DNA of 64,000 bases, from NCBI RefSeq assembly GCF_028532725.1, contig NZ_JAQKGU010000001.1, positions 1 through 64,000 of the forward strand, given 5' to 3'. This document shows positions 6,055-18,114 of this stretch, piece after piece. The position numbers and the translations under genes are program-made. The notes below the pieces were generated by a model. It was not told where the DNA came from. It did no database searches and saw nothing but the letters and a program-made list of their open reading frames with translations. The DNA comes from Desulfovibrio sp. Fe33. GTDB taxonomy: Bacteria > Desulfobacterota > Desulfovibrionia > Desulfovibrionales > Desulfovibrionaceae. Numbering within the stretch: the first letter of the stretch is position 1; each line of letters opens with the position of its first letter.

Positions 6055-6468
6055 TTAGGCGACGTCGATGCTGATGGTGCGCGGCTTGACCTCTTCGGAC
6101 TTGGGCAGGGTCACGGTCAGGACACCGTCCTTCATGGCGGCGGTCACTCTTTCCCTGTCCACCGGCACGCCAATGTTGATAACTCTGTGGAAAACACCAC
6201 TCGGACGCTCCTGCCTATAGAATTTGCCTTCCGGAGCGGTCCGCTCTCCCTTGATGACCAGCGTCTTGTCGGTGAGGGTCAGTTCCACATCGTCAATGGT
6301 CACTCCGGGCACTTCGGCGCGGACGTAAATGTTCTCGTCGTCGTTGCTCAAATTGAGCGGGGGGTAGGCCAGACGTCGGTCGTCGCCCATGGGGGATCGC
6401 AAGAACTCTTCAAAAACACGATCCAACCTGGACGGGAAATTATACAGCGTATTGAAATCGATAACCAT
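6055..6468 (-). CDS. Hsp20/alpha-crystallin small heat shock protein
   Basis: A 137-residue Hsp20 protein: N-terminal arm (VIDFNTLYNFPSRLDRVFEEF), alpha-crystallin domain with RAEVPGVTIDDVELTLTD and KDGVLTVTLPK, and a C-terminal PRTISIDVA strand. A GTG nine bases upstream overlaps the strong AGGAGGT itself, so the ATG at 6468, six to seven bases after that site, is the true start. It is the first gene of the two-gene hsp20 operon and has a candidate promoter about 35-60 bases upstream. Confidence 0.93.
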   Translation of the reverse strand: MVIDFNTLYNFPSRLDRVFEEFLRSPMGDDRRLAYPPLNLSNDDENIYVRAEVPGVTIDDVELTLTDKTLVIKGERTAPEGKFYRQERPSGVFHRVINIGVPVDRERVTAAMKDGVLTVTLPKSEEVKPRTISIDVA

Positions 6469-6498
6469 GAACGGCACCTCCTTTTCTTTGTACGCGAA

Positions 6499-6528
6499 CT
6501 AAATAGGCACGTTTCCATGGCCGTCAAG
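6499..6528 (-). promoter_or_regulatory. Candidate promoter of the hsp20 operon
   Basis: Reading the minus strand, CTTGACG (complement of 6522-6528) is followed, 15-16 bases later, by CCTATTTAG (complement of 6499-6507). It fits a housekeeping promoter (TTGACG, 16 bases, TATTTA) and partly a heat-shock sigma-32 promoter (CTTGA, CCNNATNT-like). No CIRCE inverted repeat is seen. The motif alone cannot decide between the sigma factors. Confidence 0.45.
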
Positions 6529-6639
6529 CCTGCCTGTGGAAAAAAATTTATTCCACCCCCCGTTTTTCTCTTTTAGCACCTTCCGAGACGCCCTCGCCCG
6601 CGGCATTTTGGCCGTGGCGGGGACGGGGGATTGTGTGGT

Positions 6640-7782
6640 ATGGACCCGGTCATGAGAACAATAATCCTGAACATATCATCATTCCTCGTTGTCTTGGGGC
6701 TCCTGGCGGCCTGCGGCCAGGAAACGCCCGTGGCCGTGAAAAAAGGCGCGGGGTACGAACCCGCGGCAACGGCCGTGGCGGAACGGGCGGTGCTGCCCAG
6801 GCTGTTCGACGCCGTGGGCACGGTGCAGGCCAAGACGGACATCCGCGTGGAGGCCCAGGTCACGGGAAGGGTGCTCGAAGTGCTTGTCCGGCCCGGCGAC
6901 CGGGTGAACAAGGGCGACAAACTGCTGGTGCTGGACAGCCGCGCCTCGGAAACCCGGCTGGACCGTTCCCGGCAGGCGGTTTCCTCCGCCAGGAGCATGG
7001 CCGCCCAGGCGCGTGACGCCCTGGCTTCCGCCAGGGCCGCGCACACCAAGGCTGAATCAACCTACCGGCGCATGAATCAGCTCTTCGAACAGAAAGTGGT
7101 CACGGCCGAGGAAGTGGAAAAGGCCGAAGCCGCCTACCTCCAGGCCAAAGCCGCCCTGAATCAGGCCGAACAGGGCGTGGCAGCCGCCGAAGCGCGCGCC
7201 CGCGAAGCGGACAAAGTGGTCCAGGAGGCCGAAATTTCCCTGGGATACACGACCATCACCGCCCAGGAGCCGGGAGAGGTGGCCAAACGCCTGGTGGAGC
7301 CGGGCGACCTGGCTTTCCCCAACAAGGAACTGCTCACCCTGCACACCGGGGGCTCCATGCACCTTGAGGCCATGGTCCGCGAAGCGCTCATCGGCCGCAT
7401 CAAACTCGGCGACAACATGTCCGTGGTCATCACGGCGCTCAACGACAAGGAGCCGCTGACCGGAGTGGTCCAGGAGATCGAGCCCCTGGCCGACCCCGTG
7501 ACCCGCTCCTTCCTGGTCAAGGTCCGGCTGCCGGACCGGCCCGGCCTGTACCCCGGCATGTTCGGCAGACTGCTGGTGCCCCTGGGCGACCGGGAAACCG
7601 TGCTGGTTCCCTCGGCGGCGGTCCGCCGAGTGGGCCAGCTCGAAACGGTCATGGTCAAATCCGGCGACGCGTGGCAGCCGGTCTACGTGCGCACCGGCGA
7701 GACCTTCGGCGGCAAGACCGAAATCCTGTCCGGCCTGTCCGGCGGCGAAACCTTGGGCCTGTCCCGGGAGGGTAGCCGCTGA
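6640..7782 (+). CDS. RND efflux periplasmic adaptor (membrane fusion protein), lipoprotein
   Basis: A roughly 380-residue HlyD/AcrA-type adaptor. The N-terminus carries a lipoprotein signal ending LGLLAAC, so it is predicted to be anchored in the inner membrane. A lipoyl-like half motif (VRPGDRVNKGDKLLVLD), a long alpha-hairpin (about residues 90-185, rich in Ala/Glu/Gln) and a beta-barrel domain follow. It bridges the RND pump to an outer-membrane channel. The stop overlaps the start of the pump gene by one base. ATG 6640 (nine bases after GGGGGA) or ATG 6652 are both possible starts. No outer-membrane factor gene is present here. Confidence 0.9.
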   Translation: MDPVMRTIILNISSFLVVLGLLAACGQETPVAVKKGAGYEPAATAVAERAVLPRLFDAVGTVQAKTDIRVEAQVTGRVLEVLVRPGDRVNKGDKLLVLDSRASETRLDRSRQAVSSARSMAAQARDALASARAAHTKAESTYRRMNQLFEQKVVTAEEVEKAEAAYLQAKAALNQAEQGVAAAEARAREADKVVQEAEISLGYTTITAQEPGEVAKRLVEPGDLAFPNKELLTLHTGGSMHLEAMVREALIGRIKLGDNMSVVITALNDKEPLTGVVQEIEPLADPVTRSFLVKVRLPDRPGLYPGMFGRLLVPLGDRETVLVPSAAVRRVGQLETVMVKSGDAWQPVYVRTGETFGGKTEILSGLSGGETLGLSREGSR

Positions 7783-10700
7783 TGCAGCCCGATCAATCCA
7801 GGGTCCGGGGATTTCTGCCGTCCTTCGTCCGCTATTTCCTGACCTCGCAGATGTCCGTCATCCTCGCGCTGGCCTCGCTGCTCGTGGGCGCGGCGGCCAT
7901 CATGGTCACACCGCGCGAGGAAGAGCCCCAAATCGTGGTGCCCATGGCCGACGTTCTCGTCCAGGTGCCAGGAGCGTCCGCCGAGGAGGTGGAAAAGCTC
8001 GTGACCACCCCTCTGGAACGGCTGCTCTGGCAGATCGACGGGGTGGAATACGTCTATTCGACGTCGAGCAAGGACCAGACCGCCGTCACCGTGCGCTTCC
8101 ATGTGGGCGAAGACCGCGAGGACTCGCTCATCAAGCTCCACAACACCATTCTCAAGAACCAGGACATGGCTCCCTCCATCGTGGCGGGCTGGGTGGTCAA
8201 GCCGGTGGAGATCGACGACGTTCCCATCGTCACCCTGACCCTGCACGCCGAACACGGCTTCGAGGACCGCTATTCCGACTTCGACCTGCGGCGCATGGCC
8301 GAGGAACTTTTCCACCGGCTGGCCGAGGTCGAGGACGTTTCGCGCGTGACCCTGCATTCGGGCCGTTCCCGTGAGGTCCGCGTGGAGCTGCATCCCGACC
8401 GCATGGCCGGATTCCACGTCTCGCCCCAGGAAATATACCAGGCCCTCAAGGGCGCGGACAGTTCCCTTTCCGCAGGCCATTTCGTCTCCGGAGACGGCGA
8501 CACCCAACTGGTCAGCCAGTCCTTTCTCCTGTCCGCCGAAGACGCGGCCTCCCTGGTGGTGGGCGTGTTCGACCACAGGCCGGTCTACCTGCGCGACGTG
8601 GCCGACGTGATCGACGGCCCGGCCGAACCGGCCAGCTATTCGCGCATCGGCTTTTCAGACCTGTACATGGCCGAGCTCGGCCGCGGCCCCGAACAGGCAT
8701 CCCGGCCCGCCGTGACCCTCGGCCTGTCCAAAAAGAAAGGCGTCAACGCCGTGGGCGTGGCCGACGCGGTCATCGAACGCGCCCGCCAGCTCGAACGGGA
8801 CGTCCTGCCCGAAGGCGTGACCATGACCGTGACCCGTGACTACGGAGCCACCGCCCACGGCAAGGTCAACGACCTGCTCTCCTCGCTGCTTTTCGCCATC
8901 GTCACCGTCATCGCCCTGCTGGCCTTCACCCTGGGCTGGCGCGAGGCCCTGGTGGTGGCCCTGGCCGTGCCCATGAGCTTCTCGCTGGCCTTGTTCGTGA
9001 ATTATCTCTTCGGCTACACCATCAACAGGGTGACGCTCTTCGCCCTCATCCTTTCCCTCGGCCTGGTGGTGGACGATCCCATCACCAACGTGGACAACAT
9101 CCAGCGGCATATCCGCATGGGATTGCGCGACCCGCTGGAGGCCACCCTGGCCGCCGTCAAGGAAGTCCTGCCTCCGGTCATCCTGTCCACCCTGGCCATC
9201 ATCGTCTCCTTCGCGCCCCTCTTCTTCATCACCGGCATGATGGGGCCGTACATGGCTCCCATGGCCGCCAACGTGCCTTTGACCGTGACCTTCTCCACCC
9301 TGGCCGCGCTGACCGTGGTCCCGTGGATGGCCTACCTGCTGCTGCGCAACCGGAAATACAAGAAATCCGCATCCGGCGGAGAATCCGAAAGCAAGGCGGG
9401 CACGCGGCTGCTGCGTTGGTACGGAGCGATCATCTCCCCGTTCCTGAGCCGGGCGCGCAACCGCTGGCTACTCCTGCTCGGCATCCTGACCGGCCTCGGA
9501 CTGTGCGGCGTGCTGGTGCTCATGCGGCTGGTGCCGCTCAAGATGCTGCCCTTCGACAACAAGAACGAATTCCAGATCCTTGTGGACATGCCCGAAGGAA
9601 CCACCCTGGAACGGACGGACCGCACCGTACGCGATTTCGAAGCCTATCTCCGCACCGTGCCGGAAGTGACCGACTTCATCACCTATGCGGGCGAGCCTTC
9701 CCCCATGGACTTCAACGGCATGGTCCGCCACTACTACTGGCGCGAACAGCCCAACCTCGCGGACATCCGCGTCAACCTCAGGGACAAGTCCGAACGCGAC
9801 ATGCAGTCCCACGCCATCGGGCTGCGCCTGCGCAACGACCTGCAAGCCATCGCCGACCGGAACGGCGTGCGCATGAAACTCATCGAAGTTCCGCCCGGAC
9901 CGCCGGTCATAGCCACGCTCACCGCCGAAATATACGGCCGACCCGGCATGGCCTACCAGGACATCATCGACGGCGCGCGCCATGTGGAATCAGTCATGGG
10001 CGAATTGCCCGGCCTGGTTGACCGGGACGACTCCTCCGAAACCGACCGAGTCATGTACGACTTCGTCCTGGACAAGGAAAAAGCCGCGCTGCACGGCGTT
10101 ACCACCGCGGCGGTGGTCGATACCCTGCGCCTGGCCCTGTCCGGCTCCGCACCGGCCAACGTCCACCTGCCCCACGAACGCCAGTCCCTGCCCGTGCGCC
10201 TAGTCCTGCCCATGCGGCTGCGCACCGGCCCGGATTCATTGAGCGAACTGCGCATGAAGACCGCCTCCGGCGCCATGGTGCCCCTGGCGGAACTCGGCGC
10301 TTTCCGCAAGGTCCCGGCCGAACAGCCCATCTACCACAAGAACCTCAAGCGCGTGGCCTACGTCTATGCCGAAACCGCGGGCGTGCCGCCCGGCGAAGCC
10401 GTCATCGACCTCCAGTCCATGCTCAGAAAAGACCCCATTCAGCCCGGACTCACCACCCAATGGGCGGGAGAGGGCGAATGGAAGATCACCCTCGACGTCT
10501 TCCGGGACCTGGGCCTGGCCTTTGGCGCGGCGCTGGTCGGCATCTTCATCCTGCTCGTCGGGCAGACCGGCTCCTTTGTCATGCCCGCCCTGATAATGTC
10601 CGCCATCCCCCTCACCCTGCTCGGCATCCTGCCGGGATTCTGGCTGCTCAACCTCGCGGCGGGCGGAACCGTGGGCGGATTCAACGACCCGGTCTTCTTC

Positions 10701-14282: not shown

Positions 14283-14948
14283 CTATTTGACGCGCTTGAC
14301 CACGGCCCCGGCCTCGCGGTCGGGAACCAATTCGAAGATACGGTCGGCCGACCCTGCGAAGAGGTCGAGGGGATGATGACTGATGACCAGAAGCTGGATT
14401 TCCAGGCGGGCGGCGATCTCCTGGATCAGCTTCATGAATTTGGGGATGAGGCCGGGTTTGAGCCAGCAATCCTGCTCGTCGAGGACGAGGAAGGGCCGAT
14501 GGCCCGACTCGGGCAACTGGGACAGGGCGATAAGCCGCAGGCCCACCGAAAGGATGTTGCAGACCGAACCGCCCTGGCCGGTCATGATGTCCTCGATCTC
14601 GTCCTCGCGGCCCTGGTTGCGGATCAGGAAATGGATCTGGAGCCGGTTGTTCTTGACCTCCCGCTCGGTGACGACCACCCGGTCCTGGCCGAGAATCTCG
14701 CGGATGGCGTGGGTCAGGTTGGCCTCCACCTCGTCGAGGATGCGGCCGAACAGCGCGGTGGACAACTCCTCAAGGGTGTCGCGCGCCCTGGGGGCCAAGT
14801 CCAGGAATTCCCGCACCCCGCCGAGCTCACGGCGCACACGGCCGTGTTCCGCGTGCAACTGCTCGCCAAGGGCGGACAGCCGATGCAGACGGCCCTCGGC
14901 CCGGCGGCGCTCCAGGCGCAGCTCCCTGAGATCGTCGGACAGGCTCAC
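14283..14948 (-). CDS. C-terminal half of a split Rad50/SbcC-type SMC ATPase
   Basis: A 221-residue protein with the C-terminal features of an SMC/Rad50 ATPase and no Walker A. Residues 1-65 are coiled coil. A diverged ABC signature lies at 124-129 (GQGGSV). Walker B is FLVLDEQD with D157-E158, and the H-loop is LVISHHP (H191/H192). It is the last gene of a four-gene overlapping set; its Walker A partner is encoded 1.3 kb upstream. The GTG at 14948 immediately follows the stop of the preceding gene, with GGAGGG eight bases upstream, so translation is coupled. The head domain should be complete only when this chain meets the N-terminal half. Confidence 0.85.
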   Translation of the reverse strand: MSLSDDLRELRLERRRAEGRLHRLSALGEQLHAEHGRVRRELGGVREFLDLAPRARDTLEELSTALFGRILDEVEANLTHAIREILGQDRVVVTEREVKNNRLQIHFLIRNQGREDEIEDIMTGQGGSVCNILSVGLRLIALSQLPESGHRPFLVLDEQDCWLKPGLIPKFMKLIQEIAARLEIQLLVISHHPLDLFAGSADRIFELVPDREAGAVVKRVK

Positions 14949-15269
14949 CTAGTCGCCCTCCACCGCGTTTTCCACTTGGGCGAGATCGGCCTGAATCTGT
15001 TGGACATGCTTGCGGTATGTGTCGACAACCTCTTCGTTTTGTTGCCGTTTTTCTTCAAGAAGCTGTTGCAGCTCCTTGAGGTCGCTGGTTCCGTATTCGG
15101 CTTCGGCCTGCTTTTTCAGGGTCTCCAACTGATGGGTAAGCTGGGCCACGGCCTCTTCGGTGCGCACCTTGCGGTCCCGCAACTGCTCGTATTGACGGCG
15201 CAGGTCGTTGAGTTCCCGCTCCACGCGGGCGTCCCGTGCCGTTCCGTTTTGGTTGGCGTCGTTATTCAC
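14949..15269 (-). CDS. Small coiled-coil protein of the split SMC-nuclease operon
   Basis: A 106-residue, highly charged protein that is almost all heptad-like coiled coil from residue 15 to 100 (Leu/Val spacing in ELNDLRRQYEQLRDRKVRTE and later helices). No catalytic motif is seen. It overlaps the nuclease gene by 8 bases (GTGAATAA) and abuts the C-terminal ATPase half without a gap. A plausible role is to supply or stabilise the returning strand of the SMC coiled coil that is missing from the short C-terminal half; this is inference. I do not recognise a family. Confidence 0.75.
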   Translation of the reverse strand: MNNDANQNGTARDARVERELNDLRRQYEQLRDRKVRTEEAVAQLTHQLETLKKQAEAEYGTSDLKELQQLLEEKRQQNEEVVDTYRKHVQQIQADLAQVENAVEGD

Positions 15270-16221
15270 CGCTTATGACCTCCTCGTAGAGTTCCCAGAT
15301 GAGCTTGCCTTCCGGGGTTTCGCTGCTCAGATTTTCGGTCAGGAACTGCTTCAGGCCCGTGCCCTCGTGGGTACGCTGCCAAGCCAGCCGTTCCAGCCCC
15401 TTGATAAAATTGGATTCGCCTTCAAGCTCCTGCTCCTCGGGGGGCAACTCCTGGTCCGGGAAAACCCGGTCGAAGGCGAGGTGCGGAACCACCCACTTTT
15501 CCAGCTCCACGCAGCCGGGCGTCCAGATGGCGGCGGAAGGCTCCCGGGCCATGGACCGGCGGGTGAAGGTCAGTCGGGTGATGTTGCCGGGGTTGGCCCA
15601 GATGGTCCCCCCTTTGGTCACCGTAGCCTGCGGCCGGTGAATATGGCCGTTGATGACCCAGTCGATGCCCGGCAACTCCTTGATGGAATACGCCTTGTCG
15701 ATGAACTCGGGGAAACGAATGTTGTGGTGGGTCAGCCAGATAACGGTGTCCGGGTCGTCCTCGCGGCGTTCGTAGGACTTGGGCAGAGGCGCGCCGTCCG
15801 GGCTGGCGCAGACCAGAACCGGACCGTCGTCCGTGTCTAGGACGAACTGTGGCCCCTCCTCTTTCATGAGCCGAACCGCGCCCGCCGTCTCCAGCACCGC
15901 CAGGGACACGTCGTCCGTGAACCGCGACTGGTACTTGTCGTGGTTGCCCACGAGGACGTGTACGGTCCTGTCGCCCTTGCGGGAGCCGAAGAGCCGGATA
16001 AGCTCCACGAGCATCCTGTTGGAATTGTCGCGGGGCCAATGAAAAAGGTCGCCGAGCAGAACCGGAGCCATGGACAGTTCGTCGGCCCGCTCCAGACAGG
16101 CGGCCAGCTTGGCCAGAATCTGGTCGAGATACCCCTCCAGCCGCTGGCCCGGCGGATGATCCGCCAAGTGGGGATCGGCCACCAGAAACAACCCCTTGGC
16201 GCGGATATGCTCAAGACTCAT
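15262..16221 (-). CDS. SbcD/Mre11-like metallophosphoesterase
   Basis: A 319-residue calcineurin-like phosphoesterase with every metal-binding motif of the Mre11/SbcD family: D16-x-H18 (VADPHLAD), G57-D58 (LLGDLF), GNHD at 92-95, H165/H166 (WLTHHN) and GHIH at 192-195. The C-terminal 100 residues (from about 215) do not clearly match the SbcD cap but may hold an ATPase-binding segment. It sits between the two halves of an SMC ATPase, overlapping the N-terminal half by 11 bases and the coiled-coil gene by 8. It is predicted to be the nuclease of a Rad50-Mre11-type complex. Confidence 0.88.
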   Translation of the reverse strand: MSLEHIRAKGLFLVADPHLADHPPGQRLEGYLDQILAKLAACLERADELSMAPVLLGDLFHWPRDNSNRMLVELIRLFGSRKGDRTVHVLVGNHDKYQSRFTDDVSLAVLETAGAVRLMKEEGPQFVLDTDDGPVLVCASPDGAPLPKSYERREDDPDTVIWLTHHNIRFPEFIDKAYSIKELPGIDWVINGHIHRPQATVTKGGTIWANPGNITRLTFTRRSMAREPSAAIWTPGCVELEKWVVPHLAFDRVFPDQELPPEEQELEGESNFIKGLERLAWQRTHEGTGLKQFLTENLSSETPEGKLIWELYEEVISGE

Positions 16222-17569
16222 GGCGGCACCCGTGATCCAGGAAGTTGTCGGTGGTCAGGTCGCCGCCGCAGACAGGACAGCAGCCCACGGCCTTGATGCG
16301 TTCGTCCATGGCGGCCACAACGGCCGACAAGTCCTTTTCCAGGCCGTCCAGTTCGGTCCGCTTCAGCAAAAATTGTTCTTCCAGGCCGCCGAGTTGCGAC
16401 ACGGCTTCATCGAGTCTTTTCAAAGGCTGCGGCGCGGGCGGCTCGGCAATGCCTCCCAGGATTTCCGTCAGGCGGGTGAAACGGGCGGACCGGGCGCGCA
16501 GGATGAGCAGGTCATCCACCACGGCGGCCAATCCCCCGGCGTCCGCGGGTTCCGGCGGTTCGGACAGGCTGGTCATAACCGCCCTACGGGACAAGGCCGC
16601 GCGGAGGATATCCCCGGTGTCGTCCAGCTCCCGGATAAGGCGATGCAGGGGGGCGGCTTCCTCGGCCCGGGGCGGCGCGTCGAGTTCGGCCAATGCTCCG
16701 GCCGTGCGGCCCGCGCGGCCAAGCTGCGCTTCCACCGAAGCCATGGACCCGATATGCCGTCCGAGACGGCCCACATCCTCGACTTCGGGCGGGGCCAGGA
16801 CTCCCTGGAGAGCCGCGCCTGCGGACCGTTCGCGGGAAAGCCGTCCGTCCAGGGCGCGGAACTCGGCCAGAGCCGCTTCCAGGGCAGGGACCTCCTGTTC
16901 CAGGCGGGCCGCAGTGCGGTCCAGCTCCTCGATTCCGTCCATGCGCAGCGTCAACTCCGGCAGGGGGGCAAGCCGGTCGAGGTCGGCAGCGACGCGCGCA
17001 ACCTGCCCCTCCAAGCCCTTTTCCTCCCGTTTGGCGTCGCGCACCCGCATCTTGAGCACGTTCTGCATGGCCAGCAGGTGGGCGGATTCGGTGGATGCGG
17101 CGAAAAACTCGGCCATGACCGAATCGGGCTGGTTGAGCAGGAACACGGGGTCGCGCTGGTTGCCCAGGTGCACGTCCACCAAGTCCTTCCGTGTCTCAAG
17201 CTCCACCGGATCGAGCCGCAGGGCCCGGGCCACGTCCTCGGGCACCTTGCCCTGAAGCTTGTGGTACTCCTCCGGCTCTTCCGCTCCCGGCGCCCACAGC
17301 TCGTATTTGGCCCACCGCTTGGTGCGCACCCAGGCCACCCGGGTGCCGTCGTCCACCTCGACCTCCACGCGGGCTTCCTTGGCCCCGTGCCGGATGTACA
17401 GGGCGGGGTTGGGGCTGCGCGCCGGATTGGTCGCCAGACAGCGCAGCGCCTCCACCACGGCGGATTTGCCGGTGTTGTTGGAACCGGTCAGGATGGTCAC
17501 GCCAGGCCCGAGCTCAAGCTCGGTATGCTCGTGAGCCATGAAGTTATCGATAATGATCCTGTTAATCAT
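16211..17569 (-). CDS. N-terminal half of a split Rad50/SbcC-type SMC ATPase with terminal zinc hook
   Basis: A 452-residue protein that begins like Rad50/RecF-type ATPases (MINRIIIDNFMAHEHTELEL) with Walker A GSNNTGKS at 29-36 and a Q-loop-like segment (FLLNQPDSVMAEFF) near 145. A long Ala/Glu/Leu-rich coiled coil fills about 180-425. The chain then reaches a CPVC zinc hook at 431-434 and ends only 18 residues later. In normal Rad50 the hook is mid-chain and the second coil, signature and Walker B follow. Here those parts are encoded by separate downstream genes. It starts 29 bases after the C_GCAxxG gene and is probably in the same transcript. Confidence 0.87.
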   Translation of the reverse strand: MINRIIIDNFMAHEHTELELGPGVTILTGSNNTGKSAVVEALRCLATNPARSPNPALYIRHGAKEARVEVEVDDGTRVAWVRTKRWAKYELWAPGAEEPEEYHKLQGKVPEDVARALRLDPVELETRKDLVDVHLGNQRDPVFLLNQPDSVMAEFFAASTESAHLLAMQNVLKMRVRDAKREEKGLEGQVARVAADLDRLAPLPELTLRMDGIEELDRTAARLEQEVPALEAALAEFRALDGRLSRERSAGAALQGVLAPPEVEDVGRLGRHIGSMASVEAQLGRAGRTAGALAELDAPPRAEEAAPLHRLIRELDDTGDILRAALSRRAVMTSLSEPPEPADAGGLAAVVDDLLILRARSARFTRLTEILGGIAEPPAPQPLKRLDEAVSQLGGLEEQFLLKRTELDGLEKDLSAVVAAMDERIKAVGCCPVCGGDLTTDNFLDHGCRHES

Positions 17570-17598: not shown

Positions 17599-18114
17599 TT
17601 ACGATGCTTCAGCGCAAACGACCGTAAGCCCCGCGCCCGCTTCGGCGCATTCCTCTTCGGGAAGGTAGCCCTGTTCACGAAGAATGGAAAGGGCGGTCTC
17701 CGCCCCGAACTCCACGATGGTCCGGCAATATTCCCGCACATTGTCCTGGCGGAAACGGACCATGTCGTCCTGATCGTTGAAATCGCACCGGATCAATTCA
17801 TAGCAGTTGGACGAACCGAACCGCTGATGAAACCGGGTATAAAACTCTTGGACCAGGGCATAACACGCCTCGTGGTCCTCGCTCATCTCGCTGCGCCCGA
17901 CGTACAGGCCCAGCCCCATCACCGCACCGGCAACCACCCCGCACGGGCCGCGGGAACGCGACATGCCGCTGCAAAACCCCGTCACCGCGCGGACCAGATC
18001 CCGGTAATCCCGTCCCCCCGCATCGGCGATCACCCTGGCCACGGTCTCCCCGCAAAGAAACTTGTTCTCGCCGAACAGCTCGGCGACCCTGTTCTCCACA
18101 AACCCCTTCGTCAT
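17599..18114 (-). CDS. C_GCAxxG_C_C family protein
   Basis: A 171-residue cysteine-rich protein of the C_GCAxxG_C_C type. Visible are the hallmark segment FCSGMSRSRGPCGVVAGAVMGLGL, followed by spaced Cys residues (SNCYELIRCD and EYCRTI). Family members are often near redox or metal genes; the biochemical role is unknown, though bound Fe-S or metal is plausible. The ATG abuts the stop of the methyltransferase gene (TAGATG on the minus strand), so it belongs to the murJ operon. Confidence 0.8.
   Translation of the reverse strand: MTKGFVENRVAELFGENKFLCGETVARVIADAGGRDYRDLVRAVTGFCSGMSRSRGPCGVVAGAVMGLGLYVGRSEMSEDHEACYALVQEFYTRFHQRFGSSNCYELIRCDFNDQDDMVRFRQDNVREYCRTIVEFGAETALSILREQGYLPEEECAEAGAGLTVVCAEAS

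Follow-up and report, generated by a model that had tools for sequence, protein, structure and literature searches.

We analysed the first 64,000 nucleotides of contig NZ_JAQKGU010000001.1 of the sulfate reducer Desulfovibrio sp. Fe33 (hereafter, the window) and found that four minus-strand genes, named here N, M, K and C and running from position 17569 down to 14283, probably encode the subunits of one Mre11–Rad50-type complex whose Rad50 is divided into two chains. Mre11–Rad50 is a universal machine for repairing DNA breaks. We give a probability of about 0.8 to the reading that the four proteins belong to one such complex, clipping DNA ends as SbcCD does. The computed basis for it is the homology of the lobes, hook and nuclease, the conservation of the genes as a unit, a natural fusion of C to N, and the near-exclusion, within one bacterial order, between the set and SbcD-family matches; from these we infer the physical assembly, activity and biological role of the complex.

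Gene N (16211..17569, on the minus strand like all features of the set; 452 residues) encodes a Rad50 N-lobe, a helical arm and a C-terminal CxxC hook, and gene C (14283..14948; 221 residues) encodes a long helix and a Rad50/SMC C-lobe. The Walker A motif of N, GSNNTGKS (residues 29-36; 17462..17485), recurs as GxNNxGKS in 58/58 aligned N proteins, and both cysteines of its zinc-hook motif CPVC (residues 431-434; 16268..16279) are invariant in the same 58/58. CPVC lies 18 residues short of the protein end, and across the alignment the first hook cysteine stands 18-46 residues from the C-terminus. C has no Walker A within its 221 residues; it carries a diverged signature, GQGGSV (residues 124-129; 14562..14579), kept in 55/57 aligned proteins with its GG in 57/57, a Walker B, FLVLDE (residues 153-158; 14475..14492; DE in 57/57), and an H-loop, ISHH (residues 189-192; 14373..14384; SHH in 57/57). 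Walker A, signature, Walker B and H-loop of Mre11–Rad50 lobes are all present, spread over N and C, but not in the single chain that would hold both lobes, an antiparallel coil and a mid-chain hook, as the lobes are separate genes.

In Pfam, N matched AAA_23 (9.3e-10) and, below its cut-off, Rad50_zn_hook (0.0064), and C gave only a weak SMC_N match (0.0079). Profile searches connected N with the N-lobes of Rad50/SMC proteins and with the Rad50 hook, including the hook structures 6zff and 1l8d, and connected C with the Rad50 C-lobe. Furthermore, in the P. furiosus Rad50 crystal 1f2u, the predicted model of N matched chain A and that of C matched chain B. These matches suggest that N and C form one ABC ATPase head; zinc binding by the CxxC of N, assembly of the complex and its stoichiometry are likewise predicted from sequence.

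Could two chains encoded by separate genes act as a single head? The best evidence for this comes from plasmids of Variovorax, Bosea and Acidiphilium, in which K is followed by a single chain with C first and N second, and then by M. On these three megaplasmids, Rad50 is circularly permuted, and the hook comes to lie close to the C-terminal end of the fused chain. Broader profiles matched the Variovorax chain at 1.6e-63 (N) and 3.9e-34 (C), and K relatives stand beside the fused genes (E 2.7e-17, 3.1e-10 and 6.6e-7). A tblastn search with the Bosea chain found 21 large plasmids including its own, 9 of them covered at 80% or more and all but itself below 60% identity; the gene order was read from three opened records of these 21, whose shortest fused chain is 637 residues. 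The permuted chain strongly suggests that C and N work as one head.

Gene M (15262..16221; 319 residues) encodes an Mre11/SbcD-like metallophosphoesterase (Metallophos, 1.9e-8). Its profile reached six solved sequences at E ≤ 0.1, all of them Mre11, SbcD or "exonuclease, putative" (best E 8.9e-4), and the Mre11-type motifs DxH, GD, GNHD (residues 92-95; 15937..15948) and GHxH are present in 51/51 aligned M proteins. M is thus a candidate for the nuclease of the complex and would be expected to be active. In a tree of M, 39 split-form sequences stand apart from four SbcD sequences on a 100/100 branch, which, with one outgroup, is compatible with a single origin of the split forms without proving it.

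A first-pass annotation of this stretch had described a Rad50 divided at its hook with an Mre11-type nuclease between the halves, and both the homologies above and the N-M-K-C order agree with it. Its particulars also hold: recomputed from the open reading frames, the overlaps between the four genes are the same 11, 8 and 0 bases, and we found the motifs that it had placed in N (Walker A, and CPVC 18 residues before the end) and in C (GQGGSV, Walker B and H-loop, with Walker A missing).

The four genes are conserved as a unit. In a C-profile scan of named genomes, many of which are metagenome-assembled, we kept 80 loci out of 123 relatives. N-M-K-C occurs on a single strand in 68/80, in Desulfobacterota, Planctomycetota, Sumerlaeota and Clostridia; four more read M-K-C with M running off the contig, and in the remaining eight only C was seen, in three cases where the contig begins. 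The 80 loci belong to Desulfovibrionaceae, Syntrophobacteraceae, Desulfacinum, Desulfobacca, Desulfobacterales, many Planctomycetota, a Sumerlaeia and Clostridiales/Bacillota. N and M overlap in 54/60 and M and K in 52/60 of the loci with complete trimmed genes (60 of the 80, starts set by script). The window and Desulfovibrionales rows were then added, and the alignments hold 49 rows in A5 and A6, 41 in A7 and 35 in A8; L097 and L123 were left out for an uncertain N frame or start, the other omissions being mostly near-duplicates.

Whether the order is kept in Desulfovibrionales had been raised by the first-pass annotation, and it is: 26/30 loci fetched have N-M-K-C with no gap above 56 bases. 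Three of the other four (L030, L033, L039) have ~0.85-0.9 kb between K and C, and one lies at a contig end. By whole-genome sampling, C is present in 20/395 Desulfobacterota and 11/246 Planctomycetota genomes and, with a broader profile and mostly weak scores, in 13/249 Bacillota genomes, each count taking in the centre genome already known to hold C. The C frames measure 222-453 residues in the other 19 Desulfobacterota genomes, 225-258 in the 11 Planctomycetota genomes and 186-453 overall, so that none is a complete one-chain Rad50. The recurrent gene order across phyla and the motifs conserved in relatives indicate that the arrangement is more than chance. The term "lineage-specific" used at first no longer fits, as the set spans four phyla or more and is also carried by megaplasmids and a phage.

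We also observed that, in Desulfovibrionales, genomes with the set seldom have an SbcD-family match, whereas most genomes without it do. A relative of M is present in 43 of 150 genomes of this order, the window's included. At E ≤ 1e-5, an SbcD-family match was found in 6/43 genomes with M compared with 94/107 without (Fisher, 5.6e-18), and at E ≤ 1e-7 in 3/43 and 93/107. Counted by genus, the figures are 4/12 with M and 23/24 without (p 1.3e-4). The window's own genome has zero SbcD-family matches. On the earlier question of whether ordinary sbcCD is absent from such genomes, SbcD-family matches are mostly missing where the set is present. Among 27 genomes of other groups holding the set (from the 52 loci L072 to L123, genome completeness not given), 6 have an SbcD-family match, one of them over the curated cut-off.

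Ten Bacillota regions were opened, and the split sets in them are divergent. M, N and C occur together in nine, M and C being short in L151; L147, a 4-kb contig, has C only. A short frame at the place of K, often under the profile threshold and named by its position, is present in eight. The order is M-N-K-C in seven regions, M-N-C in L156 and N-K-x-C-M in L155, whose set (6182-10059) lies in a prophage-like region; there, an additional gene separates K from C, and M comes last. The set has recA on one side and rny on the other in L149 and L150. NurA-like and HerA-like genes precede it in L152, L153, L154 and L156, as a HerA-like gene does in L148. Pfam confirmed NurA in L152 and L156, HerA in L148, L152 and L156, and RecA in L149, the other neighbours being named by resemblance.

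Phage vB_BboS-125 has the order N, an AP2 gene, a K-like gene (weak match, 0.013), C, one further gene and M, with genes annotated as exonuclease and ATPase at the places of N and C. Its M-like phosphoesterase frame (L004:9250-10230) has no feature in the record. Viral contigs gave no match when scanned with the fused protein, A5 and A9, and only the same phage when scanned with the phage N. When phage records were searched by tblastn, the split-set proteins matched 6, 1, 4 and 4 records, and the window C matched none. Separate N-like and C-like matches were seen in a Microbacterium phage (OR553905.1) and in an uncultured 485-kb phage (LR745208.1), which suggests a split Rad50 in further phages.

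How does a Rad50 opened at its hook build its arm? Past two long helices, the arm of N consists of helices of ~28 residues (the last longer) with Pro-Pro breaks every 39 residues; the model helices span residues 267-293, 306-333, 345-372 and 384-428, and L..L..PP-type motifs recur 39 residues apart. By these motifs, the model helices and a ladder test, the window N has four such units (residues 254-409; 16343..16810). Measured between two alignment anchors, the arm is 224, 263, 302, 341 or 380 residues long in 48/58 N proteins, and four more (186, 262, 262 and 340) lie at most one residue off this ladder, for a total of 52/58; six are off it (226, 305, 310, 310, 334 and 349). The 58 rows are mutually related, and their ladder positions are non-independent events; among rows from L072 on, which are not of the window's family, 26/31 lie within one residue of the ladder. 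None of the nine Bacillota N proteins showed the 39-residue motif.

Arm length shows no correlation with the length of K (r 0.03, n 39) or with the number of C residues before the signature (r 0.15, n 54). These correlations used a regular-expression anchor, missing in 3/58 proteins and judged displaced in 3/58, and the ladder was redone with the alignment anchor. The antiparallel coil joined at the hook, as the first-pass annotation had drawn it, was therefore partly right, but its descending strand of K plus C was rejected: the arm varies by 39 residues at a step, over a range of 186-380, and the lengths of K and C do not track it. Longer arms are not accompanied by longer K or C proteins, and the arm is therefore not an ordinary coil returned by K and C. 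Most likely, the helix of C pairs only with the first part of the arm, and the arm modules most likely pack on themselves or on a second N.

Gene K (14949..15269) encodes a small, probably helical protein, for which the length of 106 residues first reported is unchanged, with a YGTxD centre conserved in alignments of relatives. Its own Pfam matches are weak and mostly to coiled coils. The commonest match among its relatives is Phage_scaffold (24/45 members, best 1.3e-8), which we take to be shared coiled-coil character, and the Pfam search of K members returned no informative family. We take K to be a structural subunit, small and of constant size, possibly shaped as a helical hairpin.

A mechanism can be proposed from these parts. 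The Walker A lobe of N would join the signature and Walker B lobe of C into one head, and ATP would engage two such heads. The nuclease M would sit at the heads, and the CxxC knuckle at the end of N's arm would pair with a second knuckle through zinc. The arm itself would be made of 39-residue helical units in N alone, accompanied by the small K, whose size is constant. As ATP is bound and hydrolysed, M would gain and lose access to DNA ends; the complex would clip blocked or hairpin ends and hand them to RecA-dependent repair, as SbcCD does elsewhere, and would also take on the tethering role of Mre11–Rad50.

Several observations weigh against an SbcCD-like complex. In C, the signature serine is replaced by glutamine. 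M scores below the curated SbcD model TIGR00619 (E 0.059, 13.2 bits vs. a cut-off of 77.65), zero of 51 M relatives match that model at E ≤ 0.001, and M is locally nearer to PdeM (2.6e-6, also below cut-off) than to SbcD. Above the curated SbcD cut-off, a match is present in 1/43 genomes with M and 17/107 without, so by this cut-off alone the exclusion is weak; as only 18 of the 100 matching genomes pass this cut-off, most of the matches are SbcD-like rather than proven SbcD. Kinship among the genomes was handled by the genus count only. One genome, G115, has both the split set and an SbcD over the cut-off, and another, G003, has an M relative (L160:7115-8029) with no N, K or C within 15 kb; an SbcD-like match lies elsewhere in G003. 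C is displaced from N-M-K by ~2 kb in L161, lies on another contig in L162/L163, and is 5.5 kb away on the opposite strand in L164 (12799-13638). Finally, NurA was found in 0/150 Desulfovibrionales genomes, the window's included (control positive in 6/14), and the HerA/NurA context is therefore not applicable to the window.

Some of these points would also suit a Rad50-like complex with another job, such as tethering, condensation or fork clipping, in which M is regulatory rather than end-processing. The arm architecture and signature are unlike those of SbcC, M is distant from SbcD and locally nearer to PdeM, and a pair of AddAB-like nuclease frames in the window genome could serve for resection. 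We nevertheless consider this alternative unlikely, as the Mre11-type metal-binding motifs are intact, the M profile finds only Mre11/SbcD-type structures, and the set nearly excludes SbcD-family matches.

Could the set instead defend against phages or plasmids, as SMC/ABC-type systems such as Lamassu, Gabija or Wadjet do, rather than serve housekeeping repair? At E ≤ 1, N has hits to 97 PADLOC ATPase models, AriA (1.1e-10) and GajA (2.1e-9) being the best, and its hit to one LmuB model spans residues 2-441 (2.9e-9). C has a hit to mad3 (1.3e-5), and the distribution is patchy, with megaplasmid and phage forms. However, the 25 best PADLOC matches of N are mostly confined to the P-loop region, M has no match at E ≤ 1 and K only weak ones, and in PADLOC no one defence system was matched by all subunits. 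Moreover, recA or HerA/NurA lies beside the set in 7/10 Bacillota regions, and the set stands in for SbcD-family matches in Desulfovibrionales. No clear recurrent fifth gene was found in the flanks (~1.3 kb before N and up to 4 kb after C): two flank clusters, of 8 and 7 loci, were of Desulfovibrionaceae-type loci only, and one of 8 loci over three groups has as its longest member a frame of doubtful coding status. We regard a defence role as quite improbable, which accords with the first-pass view that this may be a repair complex rather than a defence island.

The halves jointly resemble one Rad50, as a decayed or frameshifted one-chain sbcC with an inserted sbcD would, but this possibility, which the first-pass annotation had itself named, has next to no chance and is rejected on account of catalytic motifs kept across phyla and an order recurring in 68/80 loci; M would also need to sit inside the gene, the C frames of Desulfobacterota and Planctomycetota are all shorter than the shortest fused chain, and no intact one-chain parent was seen at the same locus in sister genomes.

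Upstream of N lies a gene of a C-GCAxxG-C-C family (17599-18114), which stops 29 bases short of N; the two may be co-transcribed. Beyond it follow a TrmN-like methyltransferase (3.5e-21, under the model cut-off) and MurJ (TIGR01695, 1.2e-132), the neighbours that had been named at first. Elsewhere, the window genome encodes a TrlF-type ATPase, the pair of AddAB-like frames mentioned above and a RecN-like protein that narrowly misses the RecN cut-off. It also encodes a one-chain SMC-like ATPase of 809 residues with a mid-chain CPLC (L006:688-3117; best NCBIfam matches RecF and ASRP, an archaeal SMC-like protein), which could be a Rad50-like ATPase of another kind.

Going beyond a single SbcCD-like complex, we hold it somewhat probable that the set is an undescribed old branch of Mre11–Rad50 spanning at least four phyla, megaplasmids and phages. 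In this branch, Rad50 would have been opened at its hook, with a 39-residue ladder arm ending in a zinc knuckle and with K added; arm length would evolve in quantised steps with no returning coil to match, and the set would replace SbcCD in processing the DNA ends of its host and have been re-fused head-first as a circular permutant. The continuous coil of Rad50, with the hook at its apex, is usually held essential for signalling between hook and head. A natural complex cut at the hook, with an arm that changes in 39-residue steps, would make testable which parts that mechanism needs. Such a complex might also account for the way in which some sulfate reducers and planctomycetes do without a recognisable SbcD, and it would assign a function to genes recorded as hypothetical protein, AAA family ATPase or metallophosphoesterase.

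The separated Rad50 fragments of 1f2t/1f2u resemble N and C in that two chains, an N-lobe and a C-lobe, make one head, whereas the cut in those crystal fragments was reportedly made in the laboratory and the division here is natural. The first-pass annotation knew of no description of this architecture, and among the matches listed in the open-licence PMC literature we likewise found none of a split or permuted Rad50; the available portions of PMC6375668 and PMC9960219 contain nothing on either. The nearest papers, as far as their available portions go, treat jumbo-phage SbcCD (PMC7824862), bacterial recombination systems (PMC1193525) and divergent SMC proteins (PMC12153180). According to the accessible part of Yoshida 2011 (PMC3175470), Mre11/Rad50 fusions in bacteria, plasmids and viruses show the same enzymes in another odd gene architecture, two of them without one P-loop segment of SbcC. 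The partners in those fusions are Mre11 and Rad50; in the present set Rad50 is divided, and what the plasmid chains fuse are its two ends. The archaeal herA-mre11-rad50-nurA cluster, as given in the accessible part of PMC2288612, has its likeness in the HerA and NurA genes beside some Bacillota sets; it differs in that Rad50 is split here and that NurA was found in none of the 150 Desulfovibrionales genomes. Among phage families, PHROG 16465 (exonuclease) is matched by N (2.4e-22) and PHROG 15167 (ATPase) by C (2.4e-7), but these stand as separate families rather than as Rad50 halves, and the vB_BboS-125 genes at the places of N and C resemble them in annotation.

With SbcCD/Mre11–Rad50 itself (E. 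coli SbcC-SbcD and the archaeal and eukaryotic complexes), the split set shares the ABC head lobes, the CxxC hook, the calcineurin-type nuclease and the linkage of the genes, and it occurs mostly in genomes without an SbcD-family match, that is, where an SbcCD counterpart is undetected. It differs in having Rad50 in two chains, a terminal hook, a one-chain arm of 39-residue units, the extra K and a nuclease that failed the curated SbcD model. Judged by its sequences, the four-gene set is Mre11–Rad50-like in its predicted working and stands outside both the single-chain architecture and the SbcD model.

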